64,000 nucleotides of DNA from Serratia sp. AKBS12 (GTDB taxonomy: Bacteria; Pseudomonadota; Gammaproteobacteria; Enterobacterales; Enterobacteriaceae), in contig NZ_JANUSB010000002.1 of the NCBI RefSeq assembly GCF_024793895.1, forward strand, positions 537,730 to 601,729, given 5' to 3'. Under the pieces are notes generated by a model. It had not been told where the DNA came from and ran no database searches. It saw only the letters and a list, made by a program, of their open reading frames with translations. This document shows, one piece after another, positions 2,557 through 63,867 of the stretch (position 1 is its first letter; each line of letters begins with the position of its first letter). Made by a program: the position numbers and the translations under genes.

Positions 2557-2754
2557 TGCGGTTCCTCCGTTGTCATCAGCAGGGTGTCGCGAGAATAGGC
2601 CAACGGGCTCGATTGTCGCAGACTGTCTGGGGCGGACAGCACGTAAACCGGAGCATGCACCGGGCACCTGCGGTTCTTGAACGCTGTCTCGCCGCAAAAT
2701 GGCAAGTAAACTGGCTTATGGGGCCACTTCTCAGCCCTGTTTACTTATCGATGT

Positions 2755-3180
2755 TTATTCGACAAGCAATAGCTTGTAGAGCGGAGCGTTGTCTTCGACC
2801 ATATCGGCCAAGGTATAATTGTCCAGCTCTGCAAGAAAATTCTGTACCCCCTGCTGCAACACCTGCTTCAGGCGGCAAGCGGGGGTGATATGGCAAAAAT
2901 CGCCGCTGCAGTTAACCAGCGATAGCGGCTCCAAAGCGCGCACCACGTCGCCAATGCGTATCGATGCCGCAGGTTGCCCCAGGCGGATACCCCCATTTTT
3001 ACCACGCACGGCAGTGACCAGCCCGATACGACTCAACTGGTTGATTATTTTCACCATATGGTTGCGGGACACGCCATACACTTCGGTCACTTCCGAAATG
3101 CTGGTCATTTTATCCTTCGGCAATGAGGCCATGTAGATCAGCGCCCGCAGGCCATAATCAGTAAAACTTGTTAACTGCAC
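2755..3180 (-). CDS. nsrR: Nitric-oxide-sensitive Rrf2-family repressor NsrR
   Basis: NsrR is an [Fe-S] repressor of nitrosative-stress genes that loses DNA binding when NO attacks its cluster. The 141-residue product has an N-terminal winged helix-turn-helix (about residues 1-60) and the three cluster cysteines at 91, 96 and 102. The start is GTG at 3180, preceded by AGAGGT at a proper distance, and the reading [18 protein letters not shown] is the canonical beginning. It is the first gene of the nsrR-rnr pair, 198 bp upstream of the rnr start. Confidence 0.95.
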
Positions 3181-3392
3181 GTCTACCTCTGGGTAGGATT
3201 TACCCGTCTGACACGCCGCTTTTCGGCATTTATCAAAAGATTACTTATAGGATAATAAACCAGGCTGAGAGTTCGTCGTTAATTATTTATACCCTAGGGT
3301 ACACGACCGACAGGGCAATGAAATCATTAAGCCGGGATAATGAAAGGATTTTTGCTGGGCAACCGCATTTGGCGAGGTGAACACCATAAAAA
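3181..3392. other. Intergenic region between purA terminator and nsrR
   Basis: This noncoding stretch must hold the nsrR promoter on the minus strand. It is AT-rich in the middle (about 3235-3300). I see no convincing NsrR operator or other named site. Confidence 0.4.
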
Positions 3393-3416
3393 CAAACCGG
3401 GACGGCGCCCGGTTTG
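3388..3416 (-). terminator. Rho-independent terminator of purA
   Basis: A perfect 9-bp stem, CAAACCGGG with CCCGGTTTG, closes a 6-nt loop (3393-3416). Read on the minus strand it is followed by TTTTT. It lies 19 bp after the purA stop codon. Confidence 0.85.
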
Positions 3417-3435
3417 CTGATGACAGGAAAACGGT

Positions 3436-4788
<1,353 letters not shown>

Positions 4789-4831
4789 TCAGCACTTTTA
4801 GCATACGATTGCGTATTTTTTCGGCTACACT

Positions 4832-5032
4832 TCAGCCACCAAGGCGTGTGCTCAACATATAGTAGATAACGATGCCGGCAACCACTATTCCGCCGCCAAA
4901 ACGGCGCAGCGTGGCGTCGGGCAATTGCGTCATTGCCAGGATCATTTTGCGCCAGGCCTGCGGAAACAGCATTGGTCCCAGCCCTTCCAGCACCAAAACC
5001 AGCCCAAGCGCCAGCCAGATCGTCGAATTCAT
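4832..5032 (-). CDS. yjeT: Small inner-membrane protein YjeT (DUF2065)
   Basis: This 66-residue protein has two hydrophobic segments (about 4-22 and 44-62) joined by a basic loop, the pattern of YjeT/DUF2065. The function is unknown. It sits between hflC and purA exactly as in E. coli. The hflC terminator lies immediately upstream, so it is probably transcribed by read-through or from its own promoter. Confidence 0.85.
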   Translation of the reverse strand: MNSTIWLALGLVLVLEGLGPMLFPQAWRKMILAMTQLPDATLRRFGGGIVVAGIVIYYMLSTRLGG

Positions 5033-5048
5033 GTTTCCCTCCGGAAAA

Positions 5049-5074
5049 GAAAAAGGCCCGCGATTAAACGGGCC
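5049..5074 (-). terminator. Terminator after hflC
   Basis: On the minus strand a GGCCCG / CGGGCC stem with an 8-nt loop is followed by TTTTTCTTTTCC. It lies 25 bp after the hflC stop. Confidence 0.75.
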
Positions 5075-5098
5075 CTGATAACTATGATGCTTTAAGCA

Positions 5099-6103
5099 TT
5101 ACTTACGCGTCGAATCCGGCGACTTCATGTAGCGGAAGAAATCGCTGTCCGGGCTGAGCACCATCACATCCTGGTTGTTTTTGAAGCTGGCTTCATAGGC
5201 ACGCAGGCTACGGATAAAGGCATAGAAGTCCGGATCCTGGCTGAACGCATTGGCGAACAGCTTGGCGGCTTCGGCATCGCCTTCACCACGGGTGATTCGA
5301 GCCTGACGCTCGGCTTCCGCCAGGGTACGAGTCACCTCATAGTCCGCGCTGGCGCGCAGTTTCTCGGCTTCTTCCTGACCCTGTGAACGCAGACGACGAG
5401 CGACCGCTTCACGTTCGGCGCGCATACGCTGGTAAATCGCATCGGACACTTCCGCCGGCAGGTTGATCTGCTTGATACGGACGTCGATAACTTCAATACC
5501 CAATGCGGCCATGCTGTTCGGGTTGACCTGTGGCTGCTTGCCGGTGGTTTCCCGCTCAACGCGCGCCGCTGCAGAAGCGATAGCGTCGTCGGCTTCGGTG
5601 GTGGCAACTTCTTCGCCATCGCCGACGGTGCCGGTGTTCAGCGCATCACGCACGTCGGACATCAGCTTGCCGCGCGAGTCGGTAACGATATCCTTCACGT
5701 CCAGACGACCGATTTCGGAACGCAGACGGTCACTGAATTTACGTTTCAGCAGCACTTCGGCCTGGGAGACGTCACCGCCGCCGGTTGCCAGATAGTAACG
5801 GCTGAAATCGCTGATGCGCCATTTCAGATAGGAGTCGACGATCAGGTCTTTCTTCTCGCTGGTAACAAAGCGATCGGCCTGGTTGTCCATGGTCTGGATA
5901 CGCGCATCCAGGTTCTTCACGGTCTCAATGAACGGGATCTTGAAGTGCAGACCCGGCTCATACACCAGCGGTTTATTTTCGCCGTCACGCAGTACCTTGC
6001 CAAAGCGCAGGACGATGCCACGCTGGCCTTCCTGCACCACGAACAGTGAAGCAAAAAGCGCCACCAGCACCACAATGACGATAACTACAAAAGACTTACG
6101 CAT
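5099..6103 (-). CDS. hflC: HflC, regulator of FtsH protease (SPFH family)
   Basis: HflC forms with HflK a large membrane complex on the periplasmic side that surrounds and modulates the FtsH AAA protease. The 334-residue product has one N-terminal membrane anchor (about 4-22), an SPFH/band-7 domain and a long charged coiled-coil segment rich in Glu, Arg and Ala (about 215-285). Its start is 4 bp after the hflK stop, so the two are translationally linked. Length and order agree with E. coli. Confidence 0.96.
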   Translation of the reverse strand: MRKSFVVIVIVVLVALFASLFVVQEGQRGIVLRFGKVLRDGENKPLVYEPGLHFKIPFIETVKNLDARIQTMDNQADRFVTSEKKDLIVDSYLKWRISDFSRYYLATGGGDVSQAEVLLKRKFSDRLRSEIGRLDVKDIVTDSRGKLMSDVRDALNTGTVGDGEEVATTEADDAIASAAARVERETTGKQPQVNPNSMAALGIEVIDVRIKQINLPAEVSDAIYQRMRAEREAVARRLRSQGQEEAEKLRASADYEVTRTLAEAERQARITRGEGDAEAAKLFANAFSQDPDFYAFIRSLRAYEASFKNNQDVMVLSPDSDFFRYMKSPDSTRK

Positions 6104-6106
6104 TGA

Positions 6107-7360
6107 TTATTCTCTCCCTACGCGAGTGGTATCGTCACGCTGCGCATTTGCCCGGCGTTGGTCCATGATCGTACCGCTGTTCTGCGGTCTGTTGCCGGCA
6201 TTGCCGCTGGCAGACGGAGCGGGGTTGAGACGAATCAGGCTGGTGTCCTTATTGCCGCTGTCTGCCGCTGCGCCGGTCTGGCCACGCAGCATCTGATCCA
6301 GCGGTAACACCATCAGATTGTTGCCTTTGTCACTCACCAGCACCTTGCGGGTATGGCTCAGGACTTTTTCCATGGTTTCGATATACAAACGCTCGCGGGT
6401 AATTTCCGGCGCAGACTTGTATTCCGGCAGCAGCTTGGCAAAGCGCGCGACTTCACCCTGAGCTTCCAGAACCGTACGGTCTTTATACGCCTTAGAGTCT
6501 TCCAGCAGACGCTGCGCCTGACCGTTGGCGCGAGGCTGAACTTCGTTGGCATAAGCTTCTGCTTCACGAATGTACTGCTGTTCGTTTTCACGTGCGGCAA
6601 TCGCATCATCGAACGACGCCTTGACCTCTTCCGGTGGACGCGCCGCCTGGAAGTTGACGTCCAGCAGGGTGATGCCCATGTGGTAAGGACGAATGGTCTC
6701 TTCCAGCATGCGTTGCGTATCATTACGCACCACGGTACGGCCTTCGGTCAGGATGCGGTCCATCGAATATTTGCCGATCACTCCACGCAACGCGCTGTCG
6801 GTAGCCTGGCTCAGGCTGTCGTCCGCATTCACCACGCTAAACAGATAGGCTTCCGGGTTGGTCACGCGATACTGCACGTTCATTTCCACCCGCACCACGT
6901 TTTCATCGGAAGTCAGCATCACGCCGGACGCCGCCAGTTCACGAACCGATTCCACGTTAACCGGGCGTACCTCATCAATGAAGGTCGGCTTCCAGTTCAG
7001 GCCCGGTTGCACCAGGTGGCTGAACTTGCCAAAACGCGTCACAACGCCGCGCTCGGCTTCCTTGATGGTGTAGAAGCCACTGGCTGCCCAGATAACCACT
7101 ACCGCCACTGCCGCGATACCGATGATACGGCCGCTGAAACGCGGGCCGGATGAACCGGTACCGCCAGTATTATTGCCGTTGGAGCCTTTGCCGCCGCCCA
7201 AACCACTCAGCTTCTTGCTCAGTTTGCGGAAGATGTCATCCAAATCAGGTGGCCCTTGTTCACGACCGCCTTTGTTACCGCCAGAGTTGCCGCCATTATT
7301 ATTGCTGCTCCCCCACGGGTCGCGGTCCTGTCCGTTATTACCGGGCTGATTCCACGCCAT
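6107..7360 (-). CDS. hflK: HflK, regulator of FtsH protease (SPFH family)
   Basis: HflK is the partner of HflC in the FtsH regulatory complex. The 417-residue product has a Gly/Asn-rich cytoplasmic N-terminus (1-75), a single membrane segment at about 79-97, the SPFH domain, an Ala/Glu/Arg coiled coil near 265-315 and a disordered C-terminal tail. Many long open frames on the opposite strand within this gene are codon-bias shadows. In E. coli it is cotranscribed with hflX and hflC. Confidence 0.96.
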   Translation of the reverse strand: MAWNQPGNNGQDRDPWGSSNNNGGNSGGNKGGREQGPPDLDDIFRKLSKKLSGLGGGKGSNGNNTGGTGSSGPRFSGRIIGIAAVAVVVIWAASGFYTIKEAERGVVTRFGKFSHLVQPGLNWKPTFIDEVRPVNVESVRELAASGVMLTSDENVVRVEMNVQYRVTNPEAYLFSVVNADDSLSQATDSALRGVIGKYSMDRILTEGRTVVRNDTQRMLEETIRPYHMGITLLDVNFQAARPPEEVKASFDDAIAARENEQQYIREAEAYANEVQPRANGQAQRLLEDSKAYKDRTVLEAQGEVARFAKLLPEYKSAPEITRERLYIETMEKVLSHTRKVLVSDKGNNLMVLPLDQMLRGQTGAAADSGNKDTSLIRLNPAPSASGNAGNRPQNSGTIMDQRRANAQRDDTTRVGRE

Positions 7361-7473
7361 GTTTTAGCTCCATTATTCTGTGATTGGGTACTTCAGGCTT
7401 ATACGCCGGCTGTCGCAAGGCTGCGACGCCGATCGTGCCTACAGACCGAGCGTACAAATGTAACAGGATATGA

Positions 7474-8754
7474 TCATACGATAAAGTTAATCAGTTCCTG
7501 TTCCTGTTTACAAAGGCGACGCCACTCGACGATCGGCATGCGCACAACCATGCCAATGCTGCCGTCCTCTTCGATCCACTCTTTCTCTATCGCCTGAAGC
7601 TGGTAAAAACGGCTACGAAGACGGCCTGCCTCTGGCGGTAAGCGCAGTTCATGTTGCGCAATTTCCCCCGATAAGCGCTCCGTCAACGCCTGAAACAGCA
7701 ACGGGATACCTTCTCCGCTGGCGGCGGACAGCCACACCCGGATCGGTAAATTTTCTTCGTTGCGGTCGATACGCGGCACAAAATCGTCCAGCATATCTAT
7801 TTTGTTCATCACTAACAGTGTAGGGATCTCATCCGAGTCAATCTCTGCCAGCACGGTATTCACCGCTTCAATGTTTTCATCCACGCGGGTGTCCGCAGCA
7901 TCGATAACATGTAACAACAGAGAGGCCTGACGCGTTTCTTGCAGCGTCGCTTTAAAGGCAGCGACCAAATCGTGCGGCAAGTGCCTGATGAACCCTACGG
8001 TATCCGCCAGCACCGTATCGCCCACATCCGCCACGTCAATGCGGCGCAGCGTTGGATCCAGGGTGGCAAATAGTTGATCCGCCGCATACACATCGGCAGA
8101 GGTAATTCGATTAAACAGGGTAGATTTGCCGGCATTGGTGTACCCCACCAAAGATACGGTGGGTACATCGGCGCGGGTACGCGCACGGCGACCTTGTTCA
8201 CGCTGCTTTTCCACCCGCTCAAGGCGGCGCAGAATCAGGCTGATGCGATCGCGCAGCAAACGACGGTCGGTCTCCAACTGGGTTTCCCCTGGGCCGCGCA
8301 GGCCGATCCCCCCTTTCTGGCGCTCAAGGTGAGTCCAGCCACGCACCAAACGCGTCGCAATGTGGCGCAGCTGCGCCAGTTCTACCTGCAGCTTGCCTTC
8401 GTGTGTACGGGCTCGCTGGGCAAAGATATCTAGAATCAACCCGGTGCGATCGATCACGCGGCATTCACATAGGCGCTCGAGATTTCTCTCCTGCGCCGGG
8501 GAAAGGGAATGATCAAACAGGACAACAGATGCGCCACTGGCTTTAACTGCATCTGCAATTTCTTCGGCCTTTCCTTCACCGACAAAGTACTTGGGATGTG
8601 GGGCTTTGCGGCTACCAGTAACCACTTGCAAAGCGTCTACACCCGCGGAAGAAACCAGCGATTCGAATTCACTGAGGTCTTCGGTGTCTTTGTCCTGCGA
8701 GAAATAGATATGAACCAGTACGGCCTGCTCACCGGCTTCATAACGGTCAAACAA
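7474..8754 (-). CDS. hflX: GTPase HflX, ribosome-splitting factor
   Basis: HflX is a GTPase that dissociates stalled or heat-damaged 70S ribosomes. The 426-residue product has the HflX N-terminal domain, a Gly-rich linker with [17 protein letters not shown] near 150-166, and a G domain with the P-loop [16 protein letters not shown] and NKID. It lies downstream of hfq on the same strand, as in the E. coli hfq superoperon. Confidence 0.96.
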
Positions 8755-8791
8755 GCGTGCAACCTCTCAAACGGACACAAACCGTGAGTTT

Positions 8792-8828
8792 GGGGAACAC
8801 AGGCAGCACTTTACTGCCCATGTTCCCC
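8792..8828. other. Strong hairpin between hfq and hflX
   Basis: GGGGAACA pairs with TGTTCCCC and an inner GGCAG pairs with CTGCC across a 7-nt loop, with CA/CA internal mismatches. No T-run follows on either strand, so it is more likely an mRNA processing or stability element in the hfq-hflX transcript than a terminator. Confidence 0.55.
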
Positions 8829-8852
8829 GACATGGTTGTCTTGCAACGCGCT

Positions 8853-9173
<321 letters not shown>

Positions 9174-9395
9174 TTATTTGCTTGTTGTTTGTAACTAAGA
9201 ACCTGTCGGCTCTAAAATAAACGACGTAAAAAATTTGCGCGCTGAATACTCATCAATTGTACACAATCACTCGACCTATGCACTATATCCTTCATCTTTC
9301 AAGCCTGTAACGGCAGTGGCTACTTGCATTACCCCTTCACTTAACGCTTCAAGCTTCAGGAATTCCCGCATTAGCCTGCTGACGACAACCTGAAA

Positions 9396-10340: not shown

Positions 10341-12216
10341 GCGTAAGGGCTGCCAGTGCAGCCTGTAAATCAACAGGTTGTAAAAGTCCGGCCGGTGGCG
10401 ATTTGACCAGCTGCGGGCAAAGTCGTTCAACGTCGGTCAATAATTGTATCGCTTGCGAGCTGTTCCACTGTTCATGTTCGCTGCCTATGTGGCGGGCGAT
10501 CCAGGTGGCCAGCACCGTCGGCGACATCTCGTGATGTTCGGCCAGATAGCCTAACAGCTCCGGTATCAGTTTTTGTAAATTTTGTTGGCGTAATGGTAAA
10601 GGCACTGCGCGCAGCGTCACACGCCCGTGATCAACCTGCAGTTCCAGCCCCATTTTCACCAGCAACGCCTGATGCCTGGTACAGGCCGACGCTTCGTTAT
10701 TGCGCAGTGTCAGCTTGAGCGGAATCAGCAGTGGTTGCGGCCGCAACCCCTCTTCCGGCGGGTTCAGCTGCGCCTGACGCAGCCAGCGTTCGGCCACCGG
10801 CAAATTGAGTAACGCCAGCTGCTGGCGCTGTTCCAGCAGGGCATAGCACGGCGGATAGACCATCAGCACGCGGCCAAAGCCATGCTGACTGCCGGCCAGC
10901 GGCGTTTCCTGCGCGACTTTCGGCGCGGGGAACAGCGGGGCCTTCACCGTCTCGGCCGTCGGCATAACTGCCGGCTCGGCCGTCGCCTGCATCAAACGGC
11001 CGTACAGCTCTCCTTCGCGCTTTTGATAGCCGGAAGCGCCGCCGTGGTAGGGCTGAGGGGGACGTTCGCGCGCCGCCGGCGGACTTGCCGCTGACGGTTC
11101 GCGGCGCGGTGCCGGCTGGGAAAAATGATTGCCACCGGCCGCAACGCGGTTTTCCGGCTGCCATGCCGGCGCGGCGTCTGGAGCATCGGTTGCTTCTGCC
11201 AGCGGTAGCGGCGCACTGCCAAGCTGTTGCAATACCGTGGTCACCGCCTGATAGATAAAGTCATGCACCAGCCGCGCCTGATGGAAGCGCACTTCATGCT
11301 TGGCAGGATGCACGTTGACGTCCACCTGATGCGGATCCACCTCGAGATACAGCACATAGGCCGGCTGCTGGTCGTCTTTCAGCTGATCCTGATAGGCCTG
11401 GCGGATCGCATGGTTGATCAGGCGGTCGCGCATCATGCGGCTGTTGACGTAACAGTATTGCAGTTCGCCCAGTTGCCGCGCGCCGGCCGGATCGGCCACC
11501 CAGCCGCGAATGGTCAAATCGCCGTGTTGCCAGGAAACCGCCAGCGCATGCTGCAAAAACGCCGGCCCGCAAATACTGCCAAGTCGGCGCTCGTGCTGGC
11601 TTTCTTCCTTCGCTGTACGGTACTGACGCATCAGCTTGCCGTTATGACTGAGATTGATAGCCACATCGAAACGCGCCAGCGCAATGCGCCGCACCACTTC
11701 ATCGATATGACCGAATTCGGTTTTTTCGGTGCGCATGAACTTGCGGCGCGCCGGGGTATTGTAGAACAGATCGAGTACTTCAACCGTGCTGCCAACCGGA
11801 TGCGCCGCCGGTTTGACCATCACCGCCTGATCGCGCCCTTCGGCGTAGGCCTGCCAGGCTTCTGGCTGTTCGGCAGTGCGCGACGTCAGCGTCAAGCGTG
11901 ACACCGAGCTGATACTGGCCAGCGCTTCGCCGCGGAACCCCAGGCTGACGATGGCTTCCAGATCGTCAAGCGTGCTGATTTTACTGGTGGCGTGACGCGC
12001 CAGCGCCAGCGCCAGATCGGCCTTGCCGATGCCGCAGCCGTTGTCACGAATTCGGATCAGCTTGGCGCCACCGCGCTCAATATCAATATCAATACGCGTC
12101 GCGCCGGCATCCAGACTGTTTTCCACCAGTTCCTTCACTACCGACGCAGGCCGCTCCACCACCTCTCCGGCGGCGATCTGGTTGGCGAGCTGTGGTGGCA
12201 ACACCTGGATTGGCAT
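10333..12216 (-). CDS. mutL: DNA mismatch repair protein MutL
   Basis: MutL links MutS mismatch recognition to MutH nicking and UvrD unwinding. The 627-residue product has the GHKL ATPase motifs: the NSLDAGAT motif near residue 33, DNGCGIG near 58 and [10 protein letters not shown] near 93. A Pro/Ala-rich variable linker (about 340-440) precedes the C-terminal dimerization domain. It overlaps miaA downstream and follows amiB by 21 bp. Confidence 0.97.
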
Positions 12217-53200: not shown

Positions 53201-53878
53201 TCAGGCGACCTGTTTCCTTTTCAAACGCGCTGACCAGTTTCCCAGGTAGTGACCAGGCGTATAAAGTATTCGGCGCCGCTCGTTATGCAGCGAGTTGCCG
53301 ATCACCACCTCCCCTGCGACACCACAGAGCGACAACTGGATATAGGCCATACCGGCCGCCAGCGGGTCAATGTCCGTCGCTGACACCCACATATGATGGT
53401 GTGACAGATAGCCCGACTGGTTAAGCACATCGGCATAGGCCAGTGCCATACAGCCGGCGCCACACGCCGGTTCGGCAAGGGTAATGAACGGTTTATCCAG
53501 GAAAACGCTGTCAACATCACCCAGGGATATCTGGGCCATCATTCTGCTGACGTCCCACGGCGTGAAAAACTGGCCGCGGTACTTGTCCCCCAGATCCAGC
53601 TGCATGAAGACCCTACCCAGGAAGTCACTGAATTGATCCATCATGCTCATCGATACCTTGGCCAGCAGCTGCGCCATGCGACTGACGTCCGTTTTCTCAT
53701 AGCCTTTGACGATCTGCAGGTAATTGTCTTCCCGCTTTTGGTTGAAGCAAAAACGGTTCTCCAGCGCGATGACGCTGCAGCTGACGAAGTCCTCAAACAC
53801 CTTGGCGCGCCGGTGATACCGCGCCGTCTCATTGAAGAGTGAGATAAACGCTTTTTCATGGTTAATTAGTCCGGACAT
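53201..53878 (-). CDS. N-6 adenine DNA methylase-like protein
   Basis: The 225-residue product matches the plasmid/ICE N-6 DNA methylase-like family of similar length. It has a SAM-binding motif I, AEPACGAGCMALAYADV near residue 138, an SATDIDPLAAGMAYIQL segment and GNSL, but I see no NPPY/DPPY catalytic motif. It may therefore bind SAM or act with a partner. The ATG at 53878 has GGAG 8 bp upstream; a longer frame to 53953 runs through the structured leader. Confidence 0.75.
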   Translation of the reverse strand: MSGLINHEKAFISLFNETARYHRRAKVFEDFVSCSVIALENRFCFNQKREDNYLQIVKGYEKTDVSRMAQLLAKVSMSMMDQFSDFLGRVFMQLDLGDKYRGQFFTPWDVSRMMAQISLGDVDSVFLDKPFITLAEPACGAGCMALAYADVLNQSGYLSHHHMWVSATDIDPLAAGMAYIQLSLCGVAGEVVIGNSLHNERRRILYTPGHYLGNWSARLKRKQVA

Positions 53879-53880
53879 AC

Positions 53881-53932
53881 GTGTTCTCCAAAAAAAAGGG
53901 AACACGTATCCCGAGCGGGAAACAGTGTTCCC
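53881..53932 (-). promoter_or_regulatory. Three-arm leader of the methylase-like gene
   Basis: Minus-strand arms in order are GGGAACAC (53925-53932), GTGTTCCC (53898-53905) followed by eight T, and GAACAC (53881-53886) overlapping the ribosome binding site GGAGAACAC. Arms 1 and 2 form a terminator-like hairpin; arms 2 and 3 would hide the ribosome binding site. Confidence 0.7.
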
Positions 53933-53941
53933 AGAGGGATG

Positions 53942-53970
53942 AAAAAAGACCACCGGAAAATCCGGTGGCC
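53942..53970 (-). terminator. Terminator-like hairpin upstream of the methylase leader
   Basis: CCACCGGA and TCCGGTGG enclose a short loop and are followed by TCTTTTTT on the minus strand. It stands between the 64-residue gene and the methylase-like gene with no room for a promoter before the next leader. Confidence 0.75.
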
Positions 53971-54000
53971 ATCGTTTAACGTCAGTGCTGCAGCGAGTAT

Positions 54001-54195
54001 TTAACTCGCTACGGCATTGGGTGGTAACGGCATGGAATCTTTGTCGGCGTAGGTAAACTGGATAACCTCACCGCCCAGGACTTCCGGCTCTATTCGGCCG
54101 CCATCAACATGTTCGACACCGGCCCCGTTCAGCTCTGTCGCCAGACGCGTCGGGATTAACATCAGCATGTCGCAGGGCACAGTATACTCGGGCAT
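54001..54195 (-). CDS. Hypothetical 64-residue protein
   Basis: I do not recognise it. The product is acidic and begins MPEYTVPCDMLMLIPTRLA. AGGAG lies upstream, directly after the DUF1281 stop, so it is probably coupled. The ATG sits in the loop of a 6-bp hairpin, CTCGGG-AATATG-CCCGAG, which could restrict initiation unless ribosomes arrive from upstream. Confidence 0.6.
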   Translation of the reverse strand: MPEYTVPCDMLMLIPTRLATELNGAGVEHVDGGRIEPEVLGGEVIQFTYADKDSMPLPPNAVAS

Positions 54196-54210
54196 ATTCC
54201 CGAGCCGCTC

Positions 54211-54675
54211 CTAACAGCTGCCGGCATCAACAGGGCCGTCAAGCCCCACCATGCCGAACCAGTCGGCAAATTGGCGCTCAATGACGTCCGCTATTCGCGC
54301 CTGGGCAAGTGGTGGAATGTTCTCCCACTTGACTGACGCTATCCCGGACTGGCTGTAGAGCCGCTCAATCTGACGGATATTTTCAGCCGTTAACGGCGCA
54401 TCGGCTTTAAGCAGCCAGAACCACTGTTCAAACGCCAGGTTCTGCGCTGACGAAACGCCGGGATGTGCCAGCAAACCAGGATAAGGGACATAAACACCTG
54501 GTTTTACCGTCGCCGGTTTCAAGATGCCGGCACAACCTGCCAGGAACATCCTGCAACTTTGCTGGATGGCATGGCGGTAGTCAGGAACGACATGGCCATT
54601 CACCCATTGCTGTAGCTCGTCGACAAACACGGATTGGCCGGTTACAACCAGACGGTTTTTGCACCAGTTAGACAT
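54211..54675 (-). CDS. DUF1281-family protein
   Basis: The 154-residue product starts MSNWCKNRLVVTG and has YRHAIQQSCRMFLAGCAGIL, FEQWFWLL and KWENIPP, matching the DUF1281 family common on conjugative plasmids near antirestriction genes. It ends in FADWFGMVGLDGPVDAG. The function is unknown. Confidence 0.8.
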   Translation of the reverse strand: MSNWCKNRLVVTGQSVFVDELQQWVNGHVVPDYRHAIQQSCRMFLAGCAGILKPATVKPGVYVPYPGLLAHPGVSSAQNLAFEQWFWLLKADAPLTAENIRQIERLYSQSGIASVKWENIPPLAQARIADVIERQFADWFGMVGLDGPVDAGSC

Positions 54676-54681
54676 GGTAGT

Positions 54682-54744
54682 TCTCCTTGTTTTTCAAGAA
54701 AAAAGGAGAGACGTCCCCCAACGGGGGAGCATCTCCCCCGTTGG
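54682..54744 (-). promoter_or_regulatory. Structured leader of the DUF1281 gene
   Basis: A perfect 12-bp hairpin CCAACGGGGGAG / CTCCCCCGTTGG (54718-54744) is followed by TCTCCTT (54703-54709) running into a six-T tract. AAGGAGA (54682-54688), the ribosome binding site, can pair with that TCTCCTT arm. Confidence 0.7.
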
Positions 54745-54790
54745 GTTAAGGTGTAAAACAGTGACGGTCAGCCTGTTGGCTCAACCGCCG

Positions 54791-55057
54791 TCAGTGGTCG
54801 GACAGTTCGCGTAAAACCCGTAACTCATGGGCCAGGCGGATCGCCGGCGACAGCTGCTGATAGTCATTGACATCGATACGTTCGAGGTCGAATTTCTCAG
54901 CCAGGTCGTTAATCGCCTCATACGGCCGTAAACCGGCCTCCTGCAAGGCGATGACGCAGACCTCTTCGCAGAGGTCCGTGTCGTTCAGTGTCAGTCCGTA
55001 ATGCCGGTTCAAAAGCGCGCCGGCAACGGTCTGCCAGTGGTGTTGTTCCTCGGTCAT
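54791..55057 (-). CDS. Hypothetical 88-residue acidic protein
   Basis: I recognise only that similar small proteins with HYGLTLNDT and a charged, helical layout occur on plasmids and ICEs near ardC-type genes. GGGAGGG precedes the ATG, 14 bp after the stop of the ArdC-like gene, so it is coupled and has no leader hairpin of its own. Confidence 0.65.
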   Translation of the reverse strand: MTEEQHHWQTVAGALLNRHYGLTLNDTDLCEEVCVIALQEAGLRPYEAINDLAEKFDLERIDVNDYQQLSPAIRLAHELRVLRELSDH

Positions 55058-55071
55058 AATCCCTCCCCCGT

Positions 55072-56085
55072 TCAGGCCGCCCGGGCGGCATCAGTCTTTA
55101 CCGTTTCTGTCTCTGCCGCCGGCATTAACAGAAACTCGGTCGCCTGATGCGCCTGGCTGCTCGCACGGAACAGCGCGCGTTTGTCTTCCTTCATGATTTT
55201 CAGCCACCCTTCCAGATAGCTCTCATGCTGGACGTCGCCGGCAACGCCGATCCAGGCACAGAGAAATGCACTGCCCAGCTCGGCAACCAACTCCTCAAAC
55301 GCATAGACCGGGTCACCCCGCTTACGTGAAGAAGACGTTATCCCCTCCCGGTTAAGACGTGTTGCATGACCGGTGCTGTGCACCAGCTCATGCAGCAACG
55401 TCGACCAGTAGTCCGCCTCCGTCTTAAACTGCCGGTCTTCCGGCAGCACAATCAGGTCGCGGTTCGGGGTGTAAAACGCCCTGTTCTGGTAAACATGCTC
55501 AAGGTGAACACCGCAGTCCGCAACCATCGTGCTGACCTGCGCCTGTATTCGCTCATCAACCTGTGGGTCCTCCTCACCCGGAGCATCTGCCGGCAGTGCG
55601 CCAACCACGTCATCCGGGAGTCCGTCACACTGGCAAATGTTGAACAGGTACAGTGGCTTCAGCATCGGGACACGCTCTTTCAGGACTTTCCCTTCGTCGT
55701 CAAACAGCTGCCGGCCGTCGGCATCCTTCGCATCCTTTTCCCAGGGCTTGAAGACCACGGCAAGCGTCGCCTTCTCGCCGGCACGCACATGGCCACCGGC
55801 GGCTTCCGCCTGGAGATAGGTCAGCCAACGATTAGAACTGAAGCCATGGTCAAAGGCAGCCAACCACAGCAGCAGCACATTGACGCCACTGTAAAAGTTA
55901 CCGGTGGTGCCGTTGAGCGGCATCACCGCCCCCTGTGCCATCCGGGAGCGGTCCGTCTGCCAGGGCTTGCGCCAGGGCAGCGTACCGCGCTCGATGGCGG
56001 CGATGATTTTGTCCGTCACCTGCTGATACAGGTCGGTACGTTCGAGCCGTTTTTTCGCTGGCCGTGATGATGATGTCTTTTTCAT
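55072..56085 (-). CDS. ArdC-like antirestriction protein
   Basis: The 337-residue product has an N-terminal ssDNA-binding domain of the ArdC type (DLYQQVTDKIIAAIERGTLPWRKPW near residues 18-42) and a C-terminal zinc-peptidase-like domain with HELVHSTGH near 235 and AFEELVAELGSAFL. ArdC of plasmid pSa shields incoming single-stranded DNA from restriction. The start is the ATG at 56085 with GAGGAG upstream; a frame to 56151 crosses the leader. Confidence 0.88.
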   Translation of the reverse strand: MKKTSSSRPAKKRLERTDLYQQVTDKIIAAIERGTLPWRKPWQTDRSRMAQGAVMPLNGTTGNFYSGVNVLLLWLAAFDHGFSSNRWLTYLQAEAAGGHVRAGEKATLAVVFKPWEKDAKDADGRQLFDDEGKVLKERVPMLKPLYLFNICQCDGLPDDVVGALPADAPGEEDPQVDERIQAQVSTMVADCGVHLEHVYQNRAFYTPNRDLIVLPEDRQFKTEADYWSTLLHELVHSTGHATRLNREGITSSSRKRGDPVYAFEELVAELGSAFLCAWIGVAGDVQHESYLEGWLKIMKEDKRALFRASSQAHQATEFLLMPAAETETVKTDAARAA

Positions 56086-56120
56086 GGGAGGCTCCTCAGT
56101 AGTAAAGGCGCACTCCTCCC
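56086..56120 (-). promoter_or_regulatory. Divergent structured leader of the ArdC-like gene
   Basis: GGGAGG (56115-56120) can pair with CCTCCC (56086-56091), which touches the start codon and lies next to the GAGGAG ribosome binding site (56092-56097). It lacks the T-run and is the least regular member of the leader set. Confidence 0.45.
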
Positions 56121-56166
56121 CTTGCGGCGAAGAATACGCCCCAGGGGACAAAGAATGGGTTAACGA

Positions 56167-56769
56167 TTAACGTGCAGGGAAACGGATTGCCCCTTCCGCA
56201 TTAACCGTGTCGGCCAGGTTATACAGGCGTTCGAACATCAACTGGAATTCCTCCCTGTCGTCCGGTTTCGCCCGTTTAGTGTCGGTATGACTGGCAGTCG
56301 CCAGCAGGTCGATGGCGTTGACGCGCCAACGTTTGTACTCCGCGTTGCCGACACATGCCCGGTAATGGACATGAGCCAGTCGCTGCATGCGGTTAATGAT
56401 ATGGCGGTACTCAGCCACCGGCACCCAGGTTACAGGTGCAGCATGCACATGGATCTGGTCATGCAATACATGTATCCAGAGTTCAAAGCCGTCTGAAAGT
56501 ATTCGCTCTACGTTGCCATCGGCCAGTTGCAGATACTCGCAAAAGTCATCGCCTCCCACCAACACGCGGGAGGTTTCGTACCAGGCGTCATCCTTTTCCG
56601 GATGACAGCCATCGGCATACGCTATGTGCTTCACGCGGCCCGAGTCGGCACGTTCGGCCACGGCCGATATCAGGTAAACGCCGTCGTCTTTGGCCAGCAC
56701 CAGTTCACACTGATTGGCCTTAACTTCGGCAACGACCAGGCGCAATGCCTCAGGTTCAAAGTGCAGCAT
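56167..56769 (-). CDS. DUF3085-like protein
   Basis: The 200-residue product begins MLHFEPEALRLVVAEV and has LVGGDDFCEYLQL near 70-82, the pattern of DUF3085 proteins carried by conjugative elements. The C-terminal half is helical and unremarkable. The function is unknown. Confidence 0.65.
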   Translation of the reverse strand: MLHFEPEALRLVVAEVKANQCELVLAKDDGVYLISAVAERADSGRVKHIAYADGCHPEKDDAWYETSRVLVGGDDFCEYLQLADGNVERILSDGFELWIHVLHDQIHVHAAPVTWVPVAEYRHIINRMQRLAHVHYRACVGNAEYKRWRVNAIDLLATASHTDTKRAKPDDREEFQLMFERLYNLADTVNAEGAIRFPAR

Positions 56770-56774
56770 GTTAA

Positions 56775-56828
56775 GTCTCCTGAGTTGCGGAGACGACTTT
56801 CCCTGGAGGGGAAGCCCCTCCAGGGAAA
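56775..56828 (-). promoter_or_regulatory. Structured leader of the DUF3085-like gene
   Basis: A perfect 14-bp hairpin TTTCCCTGGAGGGG / CCCCTCCAGGGAAA (56798-56828) stands before GTCTCC (56789-56794). That arm can pair with GGAGAC (56775-56780), which holds the ribosome binding site. Confidence 0.7.
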
Positions 56829-56855
56829 TGAAACGTTATGGACAGCGCGGTGGTG

Positions 56856-57341
56856 TTACCACGATGCCCGGAAGTAAAGGTGATGCTGGCTAAAATCGAA
56901 GCCGATAAGTACGCTGTTAACGTACGTTTTCAGTGAATCGAGCAGCATCCAGTACACATCGCCGTAGTCGCGAGAATCATCAGGGAACTCCTCATGGCAG
57001 TTCGCTTCATTCAGCCGCGACAGACACAAATCCAGCATCTGGATGTCATTGCGGTCGAACGCCATCAGCTCACCGCTTTTGACATCCCCTACACTGTTGG
57101 CCACCCAATGCATCAACGCAGTAAACCCGCGAAAATGACAGGTGTGAACCAGCAGCGGCGGATGGTAGTGGTTACACGTTTTGTGGTTGTATATTCGCGG
57201 CACCTGTGCACAATCACCGCCGTCCTCTAGCCACGCTGGTGAACACGGCACCCAGTCGCCGACAGGTGTCCAGTCGCCGTTTACCGGCAACATCGGATAG
57301 TCAGCCTTACGTTGACGGAAAAAGTTGATATCAAGTCCCAT
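56856..57341 (-). CDS. Hypothetical 161-residue protein
   Basis: I do not recognise this protein, which begins MGLDINFFRQRKADYP and is rich in Cys, His, Asp and Trp (HKTCNHYHPPLLVHTCHF near 52-69). It may bind metal, but no standard motif is clear. It belongs to the leader-linked module, same strand as its neighbours. Confidence 0.7.
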   Translation of the reverse strand: MGLDINFFRQRKADYPMLPVNGDWTPVGDWVPCSPAWLEDGGDCAQVPRIYNHKTCNHYHPPLLVHTCHFRGFTALMHWVANSVGDVKSGELMAFDRNDIQMLDLCLSRLNEANCHEEFPDDSRDYGDVYWMLLDSLKTYVNSVLIGFDFSQHHLYFRASW

Positions 57342-57347
57342 GGGTCA

Positions 57348-57393
57348 CTCCTCTCGGTATACGGACAGGAGCTCCCCTGCAGGGAGGCCCTGC
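57348..57393 (-). promoter_or_regulatory. Structured leader of the 161-residue protein gene
   Basis: GCAGGG / CCCTGC form a 6-bp hairpin (57379-57393). CTCCT (57367-57371) can pair with AGGAG (57348-57352), the ribosome binding site. Confidence 0.6.
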
Positions 57394-57414
57394 CGGGTGA
57401 ATTAAAAATCGCGA

Positions 57415-57993
57415 TTATGCCGCCGAATGCGCCTGATTCAGACGCACCGCCAGCACTTCATCCATGCCGACAATAACTCGCCAGCGACAAAGCAATTCAT
57501 CGGGATCATCGTTATGACTGCTATACCCTTCCAAATGGTAAAGAATGGAATCATCAGCCAGTGCCGCCTCATCCACTTCACCCGGAGCAAGAAGTTCTGG
57601 GCGTTTAAGGTGGTGGCGCAACCAGAGCAGTGGCAACTCCCATCCTGGATTTTTGGAAAGTTTGGAGTCGTTCCGCTCTATCCGTACAGAGCCAGGGCAC
57701 AGGTTATGAATCAGTATCAGAACCAGTCGGTGAAAAAAATCAGGGTGCTGAAAGAACCCCACACGTTCTTTGACGTAAGGCACCGGTTGCATCGGGATAT
57801 TTTCCTCTGATCCCGGTGATACACGTAAACCGATCGTTTCGAAGATCATGCCATCAAACAGCTGACCGGCTTCCGTGATACCTTCTGGCCGGGCCTCTTC
57901 CGGCAACAGCCAGAACACCTCGGTCACCGCCAGGGTGAAATCAATCCACGCGTCCTGGGACGGTGGTGCGACAAAATACACGTTCATACTCAC
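57415..57993 (-). CDS. Hypothetical 192-residue protein
   Basis: I do not recognise it. The product is acidic, begins MSMNVYFVAPPSQDAWIDF and has no membrane segment. The start is GTG at 57993 because GGAGG lies 7 bp upstream; ATG 57987 is an alternative. It shares an almost identical leader with the next gene upstream. Confidence 0.7.
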   Translation of the reverse strand: MSMNVYFVAPPSQDAWIDFTLAVTEVFWLLPEEARPEGITEAGQLFDGMIFETIGLRVSPGSEENIPMQPVPYVKERVGFFQHPDFFHRLVLILIHNLCPGSVRIERNDSKLSKNPGWELPLLWLRHHLKRPELLAPGEVDEAALADDSILYHLEGYSSHNDDPDELLCRWRVIVGMDEVLAVRLNQAHSAA

Positions 57994-58056
57994 GATAAAT
58001 CCTCCGGTAACAAAAAATTGGGGGGGGATTTATCCCCCGGACGGGAATAAATCCCC
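57994..58056 (-). promoter_or_regulatory. Three-arm leader of the 192-residue protein gene
   Basis: GGGGATTTAT (58047-58056) pairs with ATAAATCCCC (within 58024-58034), followed by six T (58012-58017). GATAAATCC (58026-58034) can instead pair over 9 bp with GGATTTATC (57994-58002), which is the ribosome binding site up to the GTG. Confidence 0.75.
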
Positions 58057-58073
58057 GTCAGGGTGTGTGTCTG

Positions 58074-58466
58074 TCAGGCTGTCGTGCCGATCACCAAACC
58101 TCGAGCTCGCCAATCGCAATGTCGGCTTCGACATCGCGCTTGCCTTGCTCCACGGGCCTGCGCCCAATAAGACGCGTGAATATCTGCACTCAGTGTATCC
58201 AGATGAGCCATAAGTGCTTGCCCGTTAGCGGAAAGCGTCGATATATAGCCGTACTGCATGACCAGCAGGAAACCACCAAAGGCCTCTCCCGTATTGATAA
58301 CGGCATTTTCCACATCATTCAGCTCAGTGGGGTCTTCACGTTCAAGACCCAATCCCAGACGTTGGCAAGCCCGTATACTCATGAGCTTACCTTCAACCAG
58401 GCAAAGGAAATGAAACGCATCAAGCGCGGTTTTCACGTCAAATACGTTGGGTAACTAGGTATGCAT
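58074..58466 (-). pseudogene. Hypothetical gene with an amber codon at position 4
   Basis: The properly placed ATG at 58466, behind GGAGGATTTATCG, reads Met-His-Thr and then TAG (58455-58457). The same frame continues LPNVFDVKTALDAFHFLCLVEG to 58074. A GTG at 58436 could start a 120-residue product but has no ribosome binding site. The gene is probably disabled by one base change, or needs amber suppression. The product is unknown to me. Confidence 0.6.
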
Positions 58467-58467
58467 C

Positions 58468-58525
58468 GATAAATCCTCCACAAAAAGAAAAGCGGGATTT
58501 ATCCCCATAACGGGTGTAAATCCCC
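58468..58525 (-). promoter_or_regulatory. Three-arm leader of the amber-interrupted gene
   Basis: GGGGATTTA (58517-58525), then GATAAATCC (58495-58503) followed by CTTTTCTTTTTG, then GGATTTATC (58468-58476) containing the ribosome binding site. Arms 2 and 3 match over 9 bp. It is a close copy of the leader at 57,994-58,056. Confidence 0.75.
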
Positions 58526-58556
58526 GTCAGGGTATGAAGTGGGTAAACCGACCGCT

Positions 58557-58895
58557 CTAAAAGCGGTAACGCAGTCTGGCCAAATGCTCAGCATGTTGAC
58601 TGGCGAGTCGGTAAGCTTTTCTGCGCTCGGTATGCTTGCAAGACAGCACAACATGGGTGCTTGCGTAGGTATATTCGCCTTTATACCACCCCTTGCGCAG
58701 CGTCAGTAACGCGCTGACCGAACCATCATCACTGCAGATAACATGCGCGCGAACGGCAAAATTACCTGCTGCATTGACGTACCAGTCAGTAAAACGCGGC
58801 GGCGCCATGCGAAAAGGTATTCGCTGGACAGCCGATTTGACACGGTGCAGGGTTGATAAGAAATCAGGAACAACTGAAGAAGTAAAAACAGACAT
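58557..58895 (-). CDS. Hypothetical 112-residue basic protein
   Basis: I do not recognise it. The product from ATG 58895 (AGGAG upstream) is basic, with a helical C-terminus rich in Arg and His (HTERRKAYRLASQHAEHLAR). It is the first gene of the leader-linked module on the minus strand. A frame to 58982 runs through the leader and is rejected. Confidence 0.65.
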   Translation of the reverse strand: MSVFTSSVVPDFLSTLHRVKSAVQRIPFRMAPPRFTDWYVNAAGNFAVRAHVICSDDGSVSALLTLRKGWYKGEYTYASTHVVLSCKHTERRKAYRLASQHAEHLARLRYRF

Positions 58896-58949
58896 GGTGT
58901 TTCTCCTGTAAAAAAGGGAAACACCGCTCCCAGGGGAAAGGTATTTCCC
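58896..58949 (-). promoter_or_regulatory. Three-arm leader of the 112-residue protein gene
   Basis: GGGAAATACC (58940-58949) pairs with GGTGTTTCCC (58916-58925), followed by six T (58910-58915). GAAACACC (58896-58903), between AGGA and the ATG, matches the GGTGTTTC of arm 2 over 8 bp. Confidence 0.75.
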
Positions 58950-59021
58950 TTGGGATTTGACTGCGTCACGCGCAATCATCATAGGTAAGAAAGTTAAGCC
59001 TTGTTCATCAAAACTACGATG

Positions 59022-59220
59022 ACATCTACTCTCAAAGGCGGGCAGATGTACTACACCGTAAACGGCGTGCTTCCTTTCAAGCTACGGAAGCGTTTTTTGC
59101 CACTACCCGAAGGCGATCCTCACAAGTGACAGGATCATTGGTGGCTGTCGACTGACAGCTAGGTCACCCGAAGGCGCTCATCACAGACCCATTGAGCATT
59201 GGTGGTTGTCCGAAGACAAC
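59022..59220. ncRNA. Multi-hairpin repeat, copy 1 (possible STAXI-like RNA)
   Basis: This 199-bp segment is repeated at 61,081-61,280 with about 85% identity by eye. It contains two tandem units of ACCCGAAGGCG, hairpin, CATTGGTGG, hairpin. Stems include GATCCT/AGGATC, GCTGTC/GACAGC, GCTCA/TGAGC and GTTGTC/GACAAC. Location beside antirestriction and integrase genes resembles the context of the STAXI motif, but I cannot confirm the family or the strand. The 471-bp gap 58,983-59,453 holds no gene. Confidence 0.6.
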
Positions 59221-59342
59221 GAGTAAGCATGTTTATTTTCCGAGCAAATCGCTGATCTGTCAAGAGACCATGAGCACCTGTTTTTAGAATAATATTTCCT
59301 ATTATCCTAATAACGTAACGTCTCAGTACCATTATGATTTTG

Positions 59343-59453: not shown

Positions 59454-60353
59454 TTACTCCACATCACCTTTGAAATAGACTTGCTTAATATAACGACCTC
59501 GTCCATCACCATGGCCCAAATCCATCGATACCAATGCCTCTGCTTCTACGCGACTCATTCCATTTTTAACATGATAAGACACCGCATCACGTGAATACGC
59601 GTATCGCAAACTATGAGGAGCATCTTTCCCTGTCATTCCAGCTTCACGAACAATATTTCTGTACCGTTCTATTGCTGTATGCAATGAAGGCTTATCAATC
59701 AGTTTCCCATTGTGTTCATCACAATGTTTTATTGCCGCCTCTAAAATAGATAAAACTTTCTCGCGATTAAAAATAGTCGTATCACGAGGGCGACCACCTT
59801 TCGTGCCAAACACAACCCGAACACGCTCGTCTCCATTAATTAAAGCCTGCCGCCATGTTTTTAATGACTTTGCTGACTGAACCGTTTCTTCCGTTCGCAA
59901 ACCTACATAGCGAGACAACTGAACACCTAATGCTACCCCTGCATCTTTTTTTAAGACGTGATTTATGACAGCAGTTAACTTTTCATCCGAAATAGGGGCT
60001 TTTGTTCCATCACGGTTAGCACCTGAAATCCCTAAAGCCTGGTTACTCAATTTCTCATGGTTGGGATCGGCCAGTTTATTCCGACCCGCAGCTGACATGA
60101 TTGAACGCACTGCTGCCATCTCGTTTTGCAATGTACGGAGCGACAGGTTTTCAGCCTGCCGGCTATGAATGTATTTTTCGATATGGGCCGTCTTGATGTG
60201 TTTTACATCACGAATTTGAATATTCAACTTTGCCAGACGTTCAGAAAAACGTTCTGCAATTCTGGAACGGTCAGCAACGGTTTTAAAACTCCCTCTTCCC
60301 TGACGAGCAAGCGTGACAAGTTGTTTTCCCAGCTGTTTACCGAATCTGGACAT
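59454..60353 (-). CDS. Integrase-domain protein (tyrosine recombinase family)
   Basis: The 299-residue product has the tyrosine-recombinase pattern Arg153 (YVGLRTEET), Lys185, His247-x-x-Arg250 (PHSLRYAY), His281 (DLGHGDGRGRY) and Tyr288 or Tyr293. It starts at ATG 60353 with GGAG 8 bp upstream; a frame to 60482 is not supported. It is not next to a tRNA and lies between the two 200-bp repeats. It may act on those repeats or on a dimer or origin site of the island rather than at tRNA-Phe. Confidence 0.8.
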   Translation of the reverse strand: MSRFGKQLGKQLVTLARQGRGSFKTVADRSRIAERFSERLAKLNIQIRDVKHIKTAHIEKYIHSRQAENLSLRTLQNEMAAVRSIMSAAGRNKLADPNHEKLSNQALGISGANRDGTKAPISDEKLTAVINHVLKKDAGVALGVQLSRYVGLRTEETVQSAKSLKTWRQALINGDERVRVVFGTKGGRPRDTTIFNREKVLSILEAAIKHCDEHNGKLIDKPSLHTAIERYRNIVREAGMTGKDAPHSLRYAYSRDAVSYHVKNGMSRVEAEALVSMDLGHGDGRGRYIKQVYFKGDVE

Positions 60354-61080
60354 CTTAACATCTCCAATGGGATACACGTTCTTCTGCTTTAAAAGAAGCA
60401 GACGGATCTGTACCTCAGTAATTTCAACCCCGACGACACGGTTGCTTTTGCGCTTCCTGCGTCTCGACTGGTATCTGTGCATCGGGGCGGCGAAATGTTG
60501 AGTTCTTGCGAGGCACCCCAGATCTCTGATCCGTTTGCTGCTAATGCAGAGCTGACTTTCGTCAAGCTGCCTCCAACACTACTGTTCGTAGTGTCGCCAT
60601 CGATACCGAGTCGATTTCCTCCTTTTAGATAGTGAAACGTTCAAAACGGTGTTTTCCGTCGTAATTACGTTGAAGTGAATGAGTGTTAAAACCGTACTGA
60701 CACAGACTACATGTTGGTCAGATGGTAGTTAAACGTTGAAAGCCACGTCGTACGTGGGTTGAGACGTTATGCGCTACGCGCGTCACTTGGTAGTGTCTTC
60801 GCCACTTCACAAGTGACGCGCGCTCCTCTGCTCCTAATGAGACTCACGTAAGCGGCCAAATGTACCAAATGGCCTTATACGTGCGTTCAAAAGTCGCATC
60901 GTCCGCAACACGTCATAAAAGCCTTAACAGCTTTAAAGAAGTAAGTGATATCAGTCTGTTGAGACTGAATTATCTAGGCAAGGACTGCCATATGTAGATG
61001 TGTGCCAGGCTAATAGCGCCATGGTATTGTGATGACTTTTCAGCAGCCTTAACCGCCCCAAATACTACGTTATGCAGGCG
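60354..61080. other. Long noncoding region rich in palindromes
   Basis: No gene is supported. The strongest structure is a perfect 12-bp inverted repeat GCGCGTCACTTG / CAAGTGACGCGC (60778-60821) with inner pairing. CCACGTcgtACGTGG lies at about 60743, and several shorter dyads follow. Such a region could be an origin, a single-strand initiation site or a noncoding RNA locus. Confidence 0.5.
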
Positions 61081-61280
61081 ATATCTGCTCCCAAAGGCGG
61101 GCAGATGTACCACACCATACCTGGCGTGCTCCCTTTCAGGCTACGGAAGCTTTCTTTTGCCATCACCCGAAGGCGATCCTCGCAGATGGCCAGATCATTG
61201 GTGGCTGCCTATCGACAGCAGGGTCACCCGAAGGCGCTCATCACAGACCCACTGAGCATTGGTGGTCGTCCGAGGACGAC
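61081..61280. ncRNA. Multi-hairpin repeat, copy 2 (possible STAXI-like RNA)
   Basis: This is a direct repeat of 59,022-59,220. The last stem changes from GTTGTC/GACAAC in copy 1 to GTCGTC/GACGAC here, a paired change that keeps base pairing. The GCTCA/TGAGC stem is unchanged, while the GCTGTC stem is partly lost. Confidence 0.6.
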
Positions 61281-61398
61281 AGTACAACGTAGATAAATTA
61301 AATGATCTGACCGAATGTCGTCAATCACAACAAGTAAACTATCAAACTAATCATCATCTTTTACGTTGAATATTTTTTAATACGTCCCCACCGAGAAA

Positions 61399-62289: not shown

Positions 62290-63867
<1,578 letters not shown>

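Follow-up and report, generated by a model that had tools for sequence, protein, structure and literature searches.

Three-arm RNA leaders repeated before the genes of an antirestriction module and of other mobile elements

The subject of this report is an antirestriction module of Serratia sp. AKBS12, located in a stretch of 64,000 nucleotides (nt), hereafter the window (GCF_024793895.1, contig NZ_JANUSB010000002.1, positions 537,730-601,729 of the forward strand). At the level of sequence, our comparison demonstrates that leaders with an a/b/c arrangement of arms end at start codons, that their arms change jointly between genes and species, and that they are repeated gene by gene in an IncC plasmid, in loci of the type of the SXT/R391 integrative and conjugative elements (ICEs) and in modules bearing the STAXI RNA. 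We are inclined to regard each leader as a translational lock with a built-in decoy, whose likeliest use would be to guard the long operons of incoming DNA, one gene at a time, against leaky expression.

Leaders of the Serratia module

Nine genes lie in a row on the minus strand between 53.2 and 58.9 kb of the window, and eight of the nine gene starts are preceded by a leader of 64-77 nt. Each leader opens with a hairpin, P1 (CCC...GGG around an inner stem), which carries arm a; then come arm b, a T-rich loop, and arm c with the Shine-Dalgarno (SD) sequence of the ribosome-binding site (RBS). According to predicted folding, arm b can pair either with c, which hides the RBS, or with a, which leaves it free. 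The eight leaders are as follows:

58893..58959, minus strand: leader of the first gene of the module; P1, arm b GGTGTTTCCC, T6, arm c GGAGAAACACC, start codon; p for both pairings 0.0015
58464..58536, minus strand: leader before a gene closed at its fourth codon; arms GGGGATTTA / GATAAATCCC / GGAGGATTTATC
57991..58067, minus strand: leader of the gene at 57415-57993; arms GGGGATTTAT / GATAAATCCCC / GGAGGATTTATC, T6 in the b-c loop
57339..57402, minus strand: leader of the gene at 56856-57341; without a T-tract; p for both pairings 0.001
56767..56830, minus strand: leader before the DUF3085 gene; P1 strong but third arm weak; RBS hairpin GTCTCC/GGAGAC; without a T-tract
56083..56150, minus strand: leader of ardC; arms GGGGCGTATT / GAGTGCGCC / GAGGAGCCTCCC
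54673..54749, minus strand: leader before the DUF1281 gene, which is interrupted; arm b followed by T6
53876..53941, minus strand: leader of the N6 methylase-like gene; arm c at 53879-53889, T8 at 53890-53897, arm b at 53898-53909, arm a at 53924-53932

A first-pass annotation of this DNA had announced a similar structured leader before eight genes; sequence and folding agree with it, the eighth being ardC with its start at 56085. The three arms with a T-tract that it had placed at the starts 53878, 54675, 57993, 58466 and 58895 were located there by sequence and folding, and folding also bore out the RBS hairpins reported at 56769 and 57341.

Joint change of the arms

Six plasmids supplied homologous modules, namely those of Serratia (L001), Klebsiella (L002), Salmonella (pSGI4, L003), Erwinia (L004), Pantoea (L005) and Citrobacter (L006), and 38 leaders were brought into an alignment, A1. 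RNAalifold, run on A1 unprompted, returned a:b as a consensus helix in which six of six pairs were changed on both sides. In this helix, 84.8% of the cells were paired (71.6% in shuffled alignments), 41 cells were changed on both sides (13.4 shuffled), and the covariation score was 0.550 (0.293 shuffled); all six slides of the register gave lower values on each of these three measures. For b:c, the corresponding figures were 65.8% vs 57.4% of cells paired, 55 vs 32 cells changed on both sides, and a score of 0.308 vs 0.209.

Since MAFFT fails to keep such arms in register, we added a swap test, in which the duplex energy of an arm with its own partner is compared with its energies with the partners of other leaders over 20,000 permutations. 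Clustering 37 of the 38 training leaders left 17 divergent ones. Among these, own vs swapped energies were -16.4 vs -8.9 kcal/mol for a:b and -13.4 vs -7.8 kcal/mol for b:c, a difference reached by 0 of 20,000 permutations in both cases, and the control pairing a:c gave a null result. The leader of the N6 methylase-like gene may serve as an example, with arms GGGAACAC/GTGTTCCC/GGAGAACAC in the window and GGGACAAG/TTTGCTCCC/GGAGCAAT in locus L018, the partners fitting in both by eye.

A covariance model, R1, was then built from A1 with P1 and b:c, without the a:b pair and with the start codon included. On the fetched loci, it gave 321 matches, training and weak ones included, from which the best 222 (E up to about 0.05) were kept. 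The end of the match coincides exactly with the start codon of an open reading frame (ORF) of at least 40 amino acids (aa) in 201 of these 222, training loci and near-identical copies included; because R1 includes the start codon, more weight falls on another count: of the 215 matches ending at a start codon, 209 open such an ORF. In the modules of L001-L006, 39 of the 47 gene starts examined match the model, most of them being training sequences or near copies; leaders of ardC relatives lie at L001:8393-8460 and L004:8044-8117.

An independent set was drawn from 154 non-training matches at ORF starts, of which 122 were distinct and 69 remained after clustering. In these 69 leaders, own arms again outdid swapped ones (a:b, -10.8 vs -7.0 kcal/mol; b:c, -10.0 vs -5.5 kcal/mol; 0/20,000 each), and for 32 of the 69 a arms the own b was within the best tenth of partners. 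The a:b result is here free of model bias, because R1 has no a:b pair; b:c is in the model. With the GC-rich end of arm a removed, its own pairing with b still stood at -2.9 vs -1.6 kcal/mol (0/20,000). The near-invariant positions are G or C of the stems, the RBS and the start codon, and no conserved unpaired positions were found outside the RBS and the start codon. The earlier proposal of a common design, in which the arms change with complementarity kept in two competing pairings, is supported, and the compensatory change that it called for in homologous modules was found there by covariation and swaps alike.

Folding and possible function

Folding, T-tracts and spacing were counted on 77 representative leaders. 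Their best folds average -32.1 kcal/mol vs -23.8 kcal/mol with c kept open, and the RBS core is paired on average at more than 0.7 in 59 of the 75 leaders in which a core was found. The window leaders match no Rfam family, none down to E 1. The earlier remark that no named regulator was known is not quite right: in one sentence, the review PMC4542580 cites Garriss et al. 2013 for a strong attenuator of translation that precedes bet in SXT and has been noted in IncA/C plasmids as well, and this attenuator is likely a relative. Because model matches lie directly before bet in both element types and the RBS core is predicted to be paired (with a probability of 0.99-1.0 for the SXT/R391 type and of 0.59-0.95 for IncC), masking of the RBS is likely the common function of the leaders, which beyond SXT bet we infer.

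The lock that we have in mind would work as follows. Arm b is predicted to pair with c and so to hide the RBS. P1 carries a, a look-alike of c; were P1 opened, a would take b and the RBS could be free for a while, so that release would come from the third arm. According to prediction, the RNA is at its minimum when closed, with P1 and b:c both formed, about 8 kcal/mol below the states with c open, and undisturbed RNA should end closed because P1 folds first and holds a. P1 would accordingly be the gate, and its opener might be anything that melts or pre-empts it, be it an RNA-binding factor or a ribosome on its way off the preceding gene. Where a T-tract is present, formation of a:b under the RNA polymerase might in addition terminate transcription.

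A simpler view is that the plain RBS-masking hairpin b:c does the work, with P1 and the resemblance of a to c being relics of hairpin duplication and no switching taking place. The lead of the closed state and the trapping of a by P1 speak for it, as do the weak a:b of the SXT/R391-type bet leader and the fact that the passage of PMC4542580 on the SXT bet attenuator describes it solely as hindering expression. A relic would drift, however, whereas a still fits its own b after divergence, by 3.8 to 7.5 kcal/mol over swapped partners, and this fit persists without the GC-rich end. We consider the plain hairpin an unlikely explanation.

Another view turns to transcription: a:b and the T-tract would form an intrinsic terminator, P1 an antiterminator, and b:c a second safety catch. 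A run of T >= 5 lies between b and c in 32 of the 77 leaders and in 27 of these 32 starts <= 3 nt after b; a:b is somewhat stronger there (own vs swapped, -11.8 vs -6.8 kcal/mol), and terminator-like sites in the region number 15, in 10 separate places, vs 6.6 +/- 2.5 in shuffles. Nevertheless, 45 of the 77 leaders have no T >= 5, and the 38 without T >= 4 keep a:b (-10.5 vs -7.0 kcal/mol, 0/20,000). The T enrichment spans the whole b-c loop, not just the letters beside b, and the terminator stems that the scan located at leaders do not correspond to a:b but to short hairpins within b and the adjoining flank. Moreover, a statement in PMC4542580 has SXT bet and exo highly transcribed and held back in translation. 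We hold transcription attenuation as the main function to be rather improbable. The first-pass annotation had arm b form a terminator-like hairpin with the arm upstream: this applies to the 32 leaders with T >= 5 but is not general, a:b being kept without the T-tract somewhat less strongly. Since the T-tract occurs in those 32 only, a terminator is not the common denominator, and termination looks like an extra rather than the core of the lock.

Two candidates for the opener were tried and rejected. Occlusion of P1 by a ribosome at the upstream stop codon, as a general opener, would fit a minority: the stop lies at a median of 23 nt before the model start (63 of the 77 leaders with an upstream ORF), and the distances are too long and too spread. 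Self-opening of the nascent RNA was dropped as well. Before c is transcribed, 53 of 77 leaders fold best as a:b, by a median of 7.6 kcal/mol over P1, and 57 of 77 do so at one nascent length or another; P1, however, is the first to form, and the predicted barrier is high. For the return from a:b to the closed fold, the predicted barrier is about 14 kcal/mol (a direct-path upper bound, from the 48 of 77 leaders with both states clear). Leader peptides were also sought: an RBS, start and stop within the leader or the 60 nt before it occur in 4 of 77 leaders vs 11.1 expected in shuffles.

A number of results weigh against a lock released by its decoy. When c is held open, 53 of the 77 leaders use a:b in their best fold, and the first four letters of c are paired at > 0.8 in 31 of 77 only. 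The barrier from P1 to a:b is predicted at about 18 kcal/mol (again a direct-path upper bound), and therefore a:b may seldom form unaided. Only 17 of the 63 upstream stops fall within 12 nt of the leader or inside it; a terminating ribosome would therefore be unable to mask P1 in most leaders. The bet leader of the SXT/R391 type has a weak a:b (-6.7 vs -9.3 kcal/mol for b:c), and it is for this one member, SXT bet, that a measured effect is known, via one sentence of PMC4542580. As to the alignments, the number of pairs changed on both sides and the number of pair types in a:b of A1 were not clearly above shuffles (126 and 34 of 500), one slide had more a:b pair types than the true register, and for b:c the same two of five measures were not separable from shuffles. 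A plain MAFFT alignment of 56 independent leaders gave, in RNAalifold, the inner P1 stem only, neither a:b nor b:c. Finally, the control a:c was slightly above swapped in the independent set (185/20,000, n=69; 1401/20,000, n=33 after stricter clustering).

The same must be said of the window leaders taken singly, which on a free arm search are indistinct from 130 other ORFs of the window. Against 2000 dinucleotide shuffles, with a:b and b:c taken jointly as the statistic, p was 0.001 for 57341, 0.0015 for 58895, 0.02-0.04 for 58466, 57993 and 53878, and 0.05 for 56085; joint pairing was not significant at 55057, which has no leader, and 54675 (p 0.15-0.19) or at 56769 (p 0.64). On this statistic, the other ORFs have a median of -7.6 kcal/mol and a top eight of -22.4 to -15.2 kcal/mol, and the module starts reach -7.0 to -14.9 kcal/mol in eight of nine cases and -20.6 kcal/mol in one. 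At least eight of the 130 thus outscore eight of the nine module starts, and the case therefore rests on comparison. A stricter ungapped scan gave p <= 0.001 for 57993, 58466 and 58895, 0.025 for 54675 and 0.042 for 56769, while 55057 and 57341 had p of about 0.1 and the scan returned nothing at 53878 or 56085; it was dropped in favor of duplex energies, having overlooked leaders with a bulged A of the RBS.

Going beyond the single lock, one might speculate, quite tentatively, about a regulon whose members share a shape instead of a sequence: each element would have dozens of private a/b/c switches, with letters that fit few of the others, opened together by one general event in the newly entered cell. 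That event could be the state of ribosome or RNA polymerase on the fresh operon transcript, or one chaperone acting on P1; the whole establishment operon would be unlocked together and shut again without a repressor for each gene. The common switch at entry into a new cell that the first-pass annotation suggested would suit the genes and elements found. Much drug resistance is carried by IncC plasmids and SXT/R391 ICEs. If the lock held for most of their genes for single-stranded DNA binding, recombination, methylation and antirestriction, post-transcriptional control would be a main layer of the quietness and establishment of these elements, and transcript data alone would misjudge what is made.

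Spread, surroundings and known counterparts

In the own genome (4.87 Mb), R1 finds six places at E <= 0.01 under strict filters, all of them training sequences in the module, and no place outside the module reaches that threshold. Order-wide, 30 of 394 genomes have a match at E <= 0.01; at E <= 0.003, the numbers are 15 of 369 class-wide and 11 of 398 phylum-wide (own genome included, some genomes repeated). Two phylum-wide matches come from outside Gammaproteobacteria: one (L095) is the SXT/R391-type leader of a 47-aa gene, and the other (L097) shows a new set of arms a, b and c that is clear.

Loci of the SXT/R391 type have leaders ahead of bet (RecT), a 47-aa ORF and the genes for YqaJ exonuclease, an AAA ATPase, DUF3150 and CobT/VWA proteins. 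This type is putative: gene order points to it, as do 97-98% matches, which 7 of 5426 E. coli genomes gave, with bet named in six of these seven. Matches L047:600-666, L062:9087-9153 and L061:14864-14943 end at starts of RecT-family genes. In the last of these loci, an IncC plasmid stretch searched with E up to 3, so that several matches are weak alone, 14 of the 16 plus-strand matches end at annotated starts; of the other two, one precedes a start 15 nt inside an annotated gene and one an unannotated 30-aa ORF, and three weak matches lie on the opposite strand. From position 11339 on, there are 25 annotated genes, of which 15, among them ssb, bet and exo, have a model match before them. Of the ten genes without a match, those at 21023, 23177 and 25859 show both pairings in a simple scan, in which the remaining seven have them absent or partial. 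The seven tra-region genes (264-9381) have no model match.

The genes of the Serratia module and the elements at its head are the following:

59263-59235, minus strand: promoter-like TTGACA-17-GAAAAT, directly upstream of STAXI
59045..59221, minus strand: STAXI RNA, heading the module and lying some 150 nt upstream of the first gene
58557-58895, minus strand: unknown protein, 112 aa, first gene of the module
58436-58466, minus strand: broken gene, start codon at 58466, stop as the fourth codon
57415-57993, minus strand: unknown protein
56856-57341, minus strand: unknown protein
56167-56769, minus strand: DUF3085 protein (PF11284)
55072-56085, minus strand: ArdC antirestriction protein (PF08401 and PF18818)
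54791-55057, minus strand: CbtA-toxin-family protein (PF06755)
54211-54675, rest at 54001-54195, minus strand: interrupted DUF1281 protein (PF06924)
53201-53878, minus strand: N6_Mtase-domain protein, N6 methylase-like (PF02384, E 4.9e-6)

The CbtA-like gene, which begins 14 nt past the ardC stop, is the one without a leader or a covariance-model match. Two leaders precede damaged genes, since the frame at 58466 is closed at codon four and the DUF1281 gene is interrupted; a homologous leader, L001:10770-10838, a relative of that at 58466, sits before an open 124-aa gene. The module seems to be decaying while the leaders retain their arms. Between the DUF1281 gene and the N6 methylase leader there is a terminator-like hairpin (10 pairs, T6) at 53970-53948 on the minus strand, and a similar T6 hairpin occupies this place in L002 and L003.

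STAXI lies just upstream of the first leader in the window, L001, L003, L004 and L006. A TTGACA or TTGACG is found about 40 nt before STAXI in seven of nine copies examined (not at L003:10418 and L004:10550), a placement by which the operon transcript would begin with STAXI at its 5' end; promoter-like matches in the region are no commoner than in shuffles (4 vs 4.2). Two STAXI RNAs (59045-59221 and 61104-61281, both minus strand) flank an Integrase_1 gene at 59454-60482, with an EFASI RNA at 60465-60614, and the order STAXI-EFASI-STAXI recurs in L001, L003 and L004. The window further holds a Guanidine-II riboswitch (RF01068; 29094-29140, minus strand), an Rfam match to a group II intron piece (62405-62575, plus strand) and an Rfam isrC match (62678-62800, plus strand) overlapping the frame 62646-62993 of a putative insertion-sequence transposase.

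These surroundings bear on a further alternative, namely that the repeats act as DNA, be it as repressor operators of the CUP kind, as single-stranded DNA folded during transfer, or as integron-like recombination sites. The module adjoins STAXI and the Integrase_1 gene, an annotated integrase-domain gene stands beside four of the six plasmid modules, and the genes vary between modules. Yet the arms differ from gene to gene, so that one binding protein could hardly read them, and one of the arms is the RBS, placed at the start codon. A role as DNA appears very improbable to us. The one clean gene gain or loss examined (L004 vs L005) speaks against the related idea of cassettes with attC sites, as it lies inside genes, its borders not at leaders.

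Several known systems share a part of this design. Riboswitch expression platforms follow the three-arm logic of anti-anti-SD, anti-SD and SD. The leaders have the same logic and differ in being without a conserved unpaired ligand core. The CUP elements of pKM101 are a conserved DNA sequence bound by ArdK/ArdR; unlike them, the leader arms are not conserved in sequence. Compared with an intrinsic-terminator attenuator, which has stem and T-tract in all members, the leaders fit as a subset only (32/77). In attenuators of the ermC and cat type, an RBS hidden in a hairpin is released by re-pairing. This likeness extends to the leader-peptide attenuation of floR as outlined in PMC5890775; the erm, cat and floR attenuators have a short translated leader ORF, whereas the leaders here have none. 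The pLS20-type conjugation operons of Gram-positive bacteria, as presented in PMC8955417, resemble our case in having repeated control elements on a long operon and a proposed curb on spurious expression; they use transcription terminators and antitermination, in contrast to RBS masking with an optional T-tract. STAXI (RF01728) is likewise a structured element of the same modules, at their head, but its fold, by the account in PMC2864571, consists of tandem pseudoknots, and no window leader matches it.

In the open-access literature, to which the search was confined, we found no account of a leader that recurs from gene to gene along operons of this kind. The nearest counterpart is the SXT bet attenuator, which agrees with our leaders in place (the model match ends at the bet start in SXT/R391-type and IncC elements), in presumed effect and in element class. 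It was reported for one gene, whereas the leaders here precede many genes, also in other modules, and add a third arm competing for b, which is weak in the bet leader itself. Overall, the observation is larger than the first-pass annotation thought: beside the attenuator before SXT bet that PMC4542580 cites, there would be an operon-wide leader family, by which one reported attenuator becomes a testable class with clear arm-swap predictions.

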